From positions 1-64,000 of the forward strand of contig PWMQ01000010.1 in the NCBI GenBank assembly GCA_003558125.1: a stretch of DNA of 64,000 nucleotides, in the 5' to 3' direction. This DNA comes from Natronospira sp. (lineage in GTDB: Bacteria; Pseudomonadota; Gammaproteobacteria; Natronospirales; Natronospiraceae). The notes below the pieces were generated by a model. It did no database searches. It saw nothing but the letters and a program-made list of their open reading frames with translations, and was not told the DNA's origin. A program made the position numbers and the translations under genes. Below, one piece after another: positions 8,339 to 38,368 of this stretch; position 1 is the stretch's first letter; each line of letters starts with the position of its first letter.

Positions 8339-8376
8339 CAAAAAAAGACCCCGCCGGATGGCGGGGTCTTTTTTTA
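8339..8376 (-). terminator. Intrinsic terminator of csp copy 2
   Basis: AAAAAAAGACCCCGCC-GGAT-GGCGGGGTCTTTTTTT is a long stem with A and T runs on both sides. It lies 35 bp past the stop of the minus-strand csp gene. Confidence 0.9.
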
Positions 8377-8410
8377 CCGGTGTCGATCCATGCAGACCGA
8401 CATCGGCGGT

Positions 8411-8614
8411 TCAGAGGGCGGAGACTTCCACCGCCTGGAGGCCCTTGGGCCCTTCCTTGGTTTCGAACTGAACCTGTTGGCCTTCGTGCAGGGTCTTGAA
8501 ACCATCCCCGGTGATGCCGGAGAAATGCACGAAAACATCCTTGCCACCGTCTTCCGGGGCGATAAAGCCGAAGCCCTTGGCCTCGTTGAACCACTTCACG
8601 GTACCGGTCTGCAT
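8411..8614 (-). CDS. Cold-shock domain protein (CspA family), copy 2
   Basis: This 67-residue cold-shock protein is nearly the same as the one at 4328-4531. The differences are at residues 24 (G for S), 35 (T for A), 37 (D for N), 43 (H for A), 49 (Q for E), 65 (S for V) and 66 (A for G). The RNP1 KGFGFI and RNP2 VFVH motifs are unchanged. AAGGAAGG precedes the ATG closely. The gene, terminator and following repeat block mirror the copy 1 arrangement in the opposite orientation, which suggests duplication of a cassette. An RNA-chaperone role is expected from the family, and differences in expression cannot be read from the sequence. Confidence 0.95.
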
Positions 8615-8824
8615 ACTTCTACCTTCCTTACTTGAGTCGATGAAATGCTGGCGGGGTGGGGGCCGGGAAAGTTCCAGTCAGGCCTGGGGCCCGATGCGGA
8701 ATGTCGCCGGGACCGCTCGCCCCTGTCAGGCTGAAAGCGTCGGCGGGAATCTGGCAATGCAGGCTAGTCTCGCGTTCACAGTCATCCTTCCAGCACAATC
8801 AATAATAGAACCGCTTTCCTGAAA

Positions 8825-12786: not shown

Positions 12787-13103
12787 TGGCGTCGTCGGAG
12801 TATTACGAGCGCATCTATGCCGCGGTGGCGGCAGTGCCCAGGGGCTATGTCAGTACCTACGGTGATATCGCCCGTGCGGCCGGTCTTCCCGGCCAGGCCC
12901 GCCTGGTGGGTTATGCCCTCCACGCCCTGCCCTCCGGCAGCACCCTGCCCTGGCACCGAATCATCAATGCCCGCGGTGAGCTCAGCCTGCCGGACGACGG
13001 GGCCGGCTCCATCCAGCGGGATCGGCTGGCGGAGGAAGGGGTGGAATTCGGCTTGCGCGGGCGGATTGATTTGGGGCGCTATCGGTTTGGGTTTTCTGAT
13101 TAG
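12786..13103 (+). CDS. Alkyltransferase-like protein (ATL), MGMT family
   Basis: ATL proteins bind O6-alkylguanine in DNA without removing the alkyl group and direct the lesion to nucleotide excision repair. The 105-residue protein has the MGMT DNA-binding domain (GYVSTYGDIARAAG, 20-33), but the methyl-acceptor motif PCHR is replaced by PWHR (55-58). Trp56 therefore stands where the reactive cysteine would be, which defines ATLs such as E. coli YbaZ and Thermus TTHA1564. Asn61 and Arg63 (NARG) of the binding turn are kept. It overlaps the stop codon of the membrane protein before it. Strand-specific context gives no partner repair gene. Confidence 0.92.
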   Translation: MASSEYYERIYAAVAAVPRGYVSTYGDIARAAGLPGQARLVGYALHALPSGSTLPWHRIINARGELSLPDDGAGSIQRDRLAEEGVEFGLRGRIDLGRYRFGFSD

Positions 13104-13174
13104 GCTTCGATTAGGGTAATACCCTTCGATGGCGGTGACGGTGGGGCATTTCGGTCCAGGTCCTGGTGGCCTTC

Positions 13175-13251
13175 AATCGCGAATAAATTCGCTCCTACGG
13201 TGCCTATAAGCTTACGCCGAAGCCGCCGTAGGAGCGGCTTTAGCCGCGATT
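13175..13251. repeat. BIME-like inverted REP pair, locus 2
   Basis: AATCGCGAATAAATTCGCTC with CTACGGTGCC following (13175-13204) faces CCGTAGGAGCGGCTTTAGCC plus GCGATT (13226-13251). This is an imperfect inverted pair of the unit seen at 9734. The variant centre (AATAAATT versus CTTTAGCC) shows two REP subtypes combined. Confidence 0.85.
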
Positions 13252-13296
13252 AAACGGCCCAAATCGAAGGCAATTTGCTCAAATTCCAGAATAAGC

Positions 13297-13570
13297 CATC
13301 AGCAGGCACTACCCAGGTGACCACCCCCCAAGGTAGGCCTTGGAGCCGACAGGGCTTTCCAAGGCAGTGTGAGCCAGGGTGAGGCAAGACCGATGGTCCG
13401 GTGGACCATCGCGGCTTGCCGAACGCCCGCACAGGGATGTGCGGGCTGGACCGGGAGGCGGAGCAGGAATGCGCAGCCTTTCGACCGAACCCAGAGCCCC
13501 CATGGATGGGTTTACGGTGTCCTTGGAAAGCCCTGTCGGCTCCAAAGCCGGAATGCGCCCCGTCACCGAT
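13297..13570 (-). repeat. Structured repeat element, copy A
   Basis: On the minus strand the element reads ATCGGTGACGGGGCGCATTC, then a first arm (13518-13547 in + coordinates), a core, and a second arm (13334-13360), ending CCTACCTTGG...GGTCACCTGGG. The arms CCTTGGAAAGCCCTGTCGGC and CCGACAGGGCTTTCCAAGG are reverse complements for about 25 bp. The core carries CCCGCAC-ATCCCT-GTGCGGG (about 13426-13445) and GATGGTCC-ggt-GGACCATC (about 13392-13410). The flanks and core motifs match copy B at 38081-38262, but the arms do not. Confidence 0.85.
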
Positions 13571-38080: not shown

Positions 38081-38262
38081 GTCCGGTGACGGGTGCGCTC
38101 CGGTCCCTGTCCTGGGGGCCTGGCTCAGGGACGTCGTGGACCCGTCCCTGGGGACTCTGCACGCGACATCCTGTCGCTCACAGCCCTGAGTCAGGCCCCC
38201 AGGACAGGGACCTACCTTGGGTGCTGGTCACCTGGGCCGTGCCAATGGATGGGTTGGTTCAT
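38081..38262 (+). repeat. Structured repeat element, copy B
   Basis: On the plus strand the element reads GTCCGGTGACGGGTGCGCTC, then arm 1 (38102-38132), a core, and arm 2 (38184-38212), then CCTACCTTGGGTGCTGGTCA and CCTGGG. The arms GGTCCCTGTCCTGGGGGCCT and AGGCCCCCAGGACAGGGACC are perfect reverse complements. The core has a GCGACA-TCC-TGTCGC hairpin (38163-38177). Flanks and core motifs match copy A on its minus strand; the arm sequences are different but each pairs with itself. Confidence 0.85.
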
Positions 38263-38293: not shown

Positions 38294-38368
38294 ATCGCCA
38301 ATGAATATGCTCCTACGGTGCCGGTTGGCTAGGCCGAAGGCACCGTGGGAGCGGATTTATCCGCGATG
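38294..38368. repeat. BIME-like inverted REP pair, locus 4
   Basis: TATCGCCAATGAATATGCTC with CTACGGTGCC following (38294-38322) faces GGCACCGTGGGAGCGGATTT and ATCCGCGAT (to 38367). It is an imperfect inverted pair of the same unit as at 9734, 13175 and 23455. Confidence 0.8.

Follow-up and report, generated by a model that had tools for sequence, protein, structure and literature searches.

Several described systems resemble the element examined here, which we term the H element. Like bacterial MITEs such as RUP, NEMIS, ERIC and Nezha, the H element is short, interspersed, folded inside and apparently non-coding, and in Methylotuvimicrobium buryatense it is itself MITE-like, with TIRs and 9-bp target-site duplications (TSDs). 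Known MITEs, however, are defined by their ends, whereas the H element is one folded core found across many genera, and unlike in those MITEs a single genome can contain the core within two or more TIR types that are unrelated. REP/BIME sequences, REPINs and TIRtrons (PMC3733652) are, like the H element, intergenic, palindromic and often arranged as inverted dimers. By contrast, the H element is a three-way junction of about 80-150 nt that does not flank RAYT genes, and the REP/TIRtron tags GTAG and CGTC (PMC3733652) are absent from its core; where it is joined to REP pairs, as in the genome studied here, the adjoining REPs are separate units.

Likenesses also exist among RNAs and recombination sites. 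CsrB, RsmX/Y/Z and certain mRNA leaders share with the H element two ANGGAN-loop hairpins at dimer-bridging spacing, but the H element differs from these RNAs in its dispersed mobile copies, its long variable stem and its lack of a detectable promoter or Rfam match. TwoAYGGAY RNA (Weinberg 2010, PMC2864571) is similar by its name, which describes two A-Y-G-G-A-Y loops; against this, eight H element loci gave no match to it up to E = 5, and at the second loop position the H element has G and T about equally often. Integron attC sites are also sequence-diverse copies with a conserved strand-specific fold, but their RYYYAAC and GTTRRRY boxes were not found in the H arms of a 28-copy alignment, the conserved H core sits in the tip, and we saw no cassettes or integrase nearby.

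The window, a 64,000-nt stretch of a Natronospira sp. contig, belongs to a gammaproteobacterial assembly of 2.78 Mb in 110 contigs and contains two copies. The preliminary description had given copy B as 38081-38262 (plus strand) and copy A as 13297-13570 (minus strand), with common ends, a CATCC(C)TG hairpin loop and arms that are unlike between the copies and self-complementary within each; all of these features were confirmed. Read on the strand carrying the GGA motifs, the element is a three-way junction, with a long stem (P1) bearing two small hairpins (P3 and P2) on top. Copy B occupies 38085-38237, with the fold-relevant GGA strand on minus (covariance model R1 match at 38117-38197, minus strand, E = 3e-13). 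Its P1 arms at 38102-38130 and 38184-38212 pair at 28 out of 29 positions. The P2 hairpin (38133-38155, minus) has GUC/GAC and CCC/GGG stems and the loop AGGGAC, the outer pairing (GTC/GAC as DNA) replacing, in a covarying manner, the GCC/GGC of most copies; P3 (38163-38177, minus) reads GCGAC[AGGAT]GTCGC. The right half of this copy is decayed. Copy A occupies 13316-13567, with the GGA strand on plus (covariance model match at 13443-13533, plus strand, E = 1.5e-4), and its P1 arm at 13521-13546 pairs with 13340-13364. It is a long variant, also seen in four more copies (L014, L020, L026 and L041), in which a branch about 105 nt longer stands in place of P3; that branch also bears a GGA hairpin, CAC[AGGGAT]GTG. 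Compared with shuffled sequences, copies B and A folded with z = -6.5 and -8.8 as DNA, and with z = -7.2 and -8.1 when the opposite strand was folded as RNA.

Both copies had been described as lying near a REP pair. A REP pair (BIME) does adjoin each of them, at 38303-38366 (partly decayed) for copy B and at 13178-13252 for copy A, but the unit is larger than had been recognised, comprising two inverted H elements around a REP pair. Next to copy A, the REP pair is followed by a truncated H element in the opposite orientation (13103-13173), consisting of one arm and the outer end (GTCACCGCCATCGAAGGG..AATCGAAGCC). Across the genome, the composite unit of two opposite H elements flanking a REP pair measures about 0.4-0.65 kb, and many inverted H pairs are spaced by ~170-300 bp with the REP pair between them.

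The repeat family proposed from these two copies extends to about 25-30 copies in the genome, where the 3' end motif matched 28 times and the core 18 times; there are several arm types (for example CCTAGGTGGCGACAGGCCTTTCCAAG, CTTTGGTCCCGGTGGCCTTGCTCAGGG and CCTTGGTGCCGGCAGACGTTTGCAAGG), each opposite its own complement. The H element was absent from both orthologous intervals (after yidC and after a lactamase-like gene) in two congeneric genomes and one genome of the same family. With all three relatives empty at both sites, the window copies are lineage-specific insertions. A Y1/RAYT transposase gene (G000:C27:152-478) is flanked by REPs like those within the composite unit. In the window's genome and a sister genome, a long hairpin repeat of another kind (TTCACAGTGAGATTCGTCGCTCC..CTCGCTTTGTTGCGCCTCGCTCATGTAGC) has inserted into an H element arm, upstream of the H core (L012, L007).

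To describe the distribution of the family, we used pattern searches and a covariance model. The core ACGCCGTRAACCCATCCNTGGGGGCTY, written on the strand of the preliminary description, occurred by pattern in 12 out of 369 genomes of the class, and with unrelated, still pairing arms in at least 118 stretches of GTDB contigs. Hosts among the matches listed include Stenotrophomonas, Xanthomonas, Arenimonas, Marinobacter, Microbulbifer, Rheinheimera, Halopseudomonas, Oceanisphaera, Methylotuvimicrobium and Sedimenticola. The covariance model, scoring up to 25 candidates in each genome, recovered both window copies and matched at least 34 out of 185 genomes and at least 34 out of 177 genera; the lowest E-values reached 1e-20. 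The highest copy number was 134 per genome (M. buryatense 5G, pattern count). At four Xanthomonas loci (L196:2499-3346, L119:826-1514, L192 and L202), as many as six H elements stand in an array with alternating, inverted orientation. The core was found in none of the phage and viral sequence sets and in 3 out of 72,556 plasmid records, and we rejected spread by phages. On the plasmid pDCA of the alphaproteobacterium Ancylobacter novellus, which is conjugative, an H element with intact arms (L222:2975-3075) has a haloalkane dehalogenase gene on one side and an ISAs1 transposase gene on the other, which suggests transfer of this region from a gammaproteobacterium. No conserved gene was found beside the copies across genera; gene clusters were confined to close relatives or to common protein families, and a helper gene next to the copies was rejected.

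In Rfam 15, no family matched the element at gathering score in the window and 18 further loci, and at E <= 5 the eight loci of the window's genome had no match, including to TwoAYGGAY (RF01731). A literature search by core sequence found no description. As far as tested, the H element family was previously uncatalogued. Elsewhere in the window, the Rfam cspA thermoregulator matched 8341-8768 (minus strand) with 81 bits, where the gathering score is 78.

A relation to non-autonomous transposons, one of several options raised in the preliminary description, could be examined directly in M. buryatense (G265). This genome contains 52 complete elements with the paired termini CAGCAATTCCCA(A/G)TTTG, all of them carrying the core. 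Duplications were present at 43 of the 52, and 38 of these were 9 bp long with at most one mismatch. In at least one host, the H element has thus moved by a transposition that duplicates 9 bp of the target. The target-site duplications that the preliminary description had suggested looking for were present in M. buryatense but were not found by eye in the window's genome. A second M. buryatense element type, with CTACTCCCTTTTGAT-like ends, has the same core; since element types with different ends have it in common, the core is a module shared by different carriers. Modules inserted in P3 of many M. buryatense copies (L053, L078-L103) add further hairpins with GGA or AGGA loops, in both orientations (GCCAAGGATGGC, TGCAGGAGCA and TTACATCCATGTAA). 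Copy orientation in M. buryatense did not track GC skew, and orientation by replication strand was rejected. None of 14 Y1 transposase loci in eight carrier or related genomes had a core within ~3 kb, and a RAYT/TIRtron origin was rejected because the Y1 transposases lack an adjacent core.

Selection on pairing, which had been proposed from two copies, held across the family. Among 136 distinct copies from many genomes, whose arms fall into 70 clusters with a mean identity of 34%, 98 had at least 15 out of 20 Watson-Crick arm pairs, compared with 3 out of 2205 when arms were re-paired at random; pairing is thus not lost in most copies. A gapless alignment of 28 copies, chosen for pairing in P1 but not in P3, showed double-sided changes at 14 out of 14 P1 pairs and 9 out of 10 P3 pairs. 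Overall, 23 of its 30 pairs covary, six (all in P2) are invariant, and one departs by unpaired cells only; shifting the partner by one column reduced paired cells from 94% to below 47%, and neither arm contains an invariant column. In the window's genome, P2 also covaries (CCC/GGG to TAC/GTA, GCC/GGC to GTC/GAC) while its loop is kept. Within copy families, double changes were compensated 126 times and left unpaired six times.

The remaining arm mismatches indicate which strand folds. In 184 copies from 90 arm clusters, 122 isolated mismatches were A.C on the strand as given, equivalent to G.U on the GGA strand, and 28 were G.T (p = 3e-15). Counting one mismatch per cluster in the first set gave the same asymmetry (38:7), and the excess had the same direction in each genome group having such mismatches; the sole arm mismatch of copy B is of the rarer kind, G.T as given. 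Strand-symmetric mutation predicts equal counts, so the 122:28 ratio favours folding of the GGA strand, as RNA or as single-stranded DNA. Recent single events within copy families numbered 25 versus 14 and included both T>C and G>A. We therefore rejected mutation (deamination) as the cause; the asymmetry looks like later selection. The fold of one strand is under selection, and the data favour the strand opposite to the one used in the preliminary description.

The loops of this fold resemble protein-binding sites. GGA lies in the apical loop of P3 in 113 out of 116 copies (85 out of 88 distinct), on 66 distinct stems; the loop types include CANGGANG (70) and CAGGANG (19). In the 28-copy alignment the P2 loop is ANGGAT, invariant save for N, and the two GGA motifs are 23 nt apart in 27 out of 28 copies. 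CsrA has the SELEX consensus RUACARGGAUGU with an ANGGAN hexaloop, N being a free position in RsmE and CsrA ligands, and its dimer bridges sites 10-63 nt apart with an optimum above 18 (PMC7652899). Judged from sequence, two ANGGAN loops 23 nt apart are the recognition geometry of CsrA/RsmA, and we infer that the H element would bind these proteins. Typical CsrA SELEX ligands (PMC7652899) are less stable than the P3 stems, which have 8-10 GC-rich pairs. All 25 element-positive genomes at least 90% complete contain csrA, as do 146 of the 162 genomes at that completeness (chance of this co-occurrence 0.06); csrA being nearly universal in the class, the co-occurrence is weak evidence. No csrA was seen in three incomplete element-positive MAGs.

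Gene context was counted approximately, simple ORF choices serving as gene calls. Singleton copies lay between convergent genes 72 times and between divergent genes 29 times, against a background of 67 versus 109 (p = 1e-7). Between tandem genes, the GGA strand was antisense in 75 cases and sense in 38 (p = 6e-4). No sigma-70-like promoter signal was found upstream of the GGA strand, and we rejected a promoter of the element's own. Together, the gene context and the lack of a promoter speak against both a dedicated sRNA and a 3'-UTR element under selection, and would be compatible with GGA hairpins being counter-selected in mRNAs.

Taking these results together, we tentatively favour, at just under even confidence, a non-autonomous mobile repeat of MITE/REP-like type that carries a CsrA/RsmA-type RNA element. 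The payload would be a folded nucleic acid made from the GGA strand, free in P1 sequence and held to P1 pairing. It would be RNA from read-through transcription, whose two GGA loops a CsrA/RsmA dimer may bind, so that each insertion would either equip a transcript with a CsrA site or enlarge a pool of CsrA decoys. The folded strand could instead act as single-stranded DNA, a hairpin for a recombinase, a transposase or a replication/repair protein with GGA as the recognition feature. We regard this function, of the kind known from integron attC or IS200/IS605-type ends, as rather unlikely, although it suits an element that is mobile, dispersed and promoterless. A strand-specific fold suits single-stranded DNA as well, DNA also tolerating G.T better than A.C, and 20 out of 28 close pairs are REPIN-like inverted dimers with the GGA 5' ends inside. 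However, the mobile ends in M. buryatense are separate, DDE-like TIRs with 9-bp TSDs, the Y1/RAYT genes of carrier genomes have no flanking core, no conserved partner gene lies near the copies, and the consensus to which the GGA loops conform is one of RNA-protein recognition.

Two further explanations concern the stem. Quasipalindrome correction by template switching at replication could keep the arms of a plain selfish DNA complementary; it suits arms that are near perfect and free in sequence, and would also yield the compensated excess of 126:6. We nevertheless consider it decidedly unlikely, because it does not predict the 122:28 asymmetry, whose recent within-family counterpart is nearer symmetric (25:14) and fits later selection, and because it leaves the invariant core, the GGA loops on 66 stems and the constant 23-nt spacing unexplained. 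The least probable of the explanations weighed is an mRNA 3'-end hairpin, serving as a bidirectional terminator or as a stabiliser or RNase III site, roles that have been suggested for other MITEs and REPs. The fold is very stable and the copies are enriched between convergent genes (72 versus 29), but promoter avoidance accounts for that location, the mRNA strand between tandem genes usually carries the less conserved fold, and the copies read have no T-run.

The H element combines a near-invariant core with free arms, in at least 34 genera and at up to 134 copies per genome, and we found neither an Rfam family nor a literature description for it. CsrA aside, it is a clear example of a mobile repeat in which the folding of one strand is selected. 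It is quite possible, though on balance doubtful, that the family is a transposon-spread CsrA/RsmA-binding RNA, a ready-made dual site lodged between genes of Gammaproteobacteria that would serve as decoys or rewire the CsrA network. If the CsrA reading is true, the modelling of CsrA/RsmA titration would be affected, and in plant-associated, marine and opportunistic bacteria mobile DNA would supply binding sites to a regulator that acts globally after transcription.
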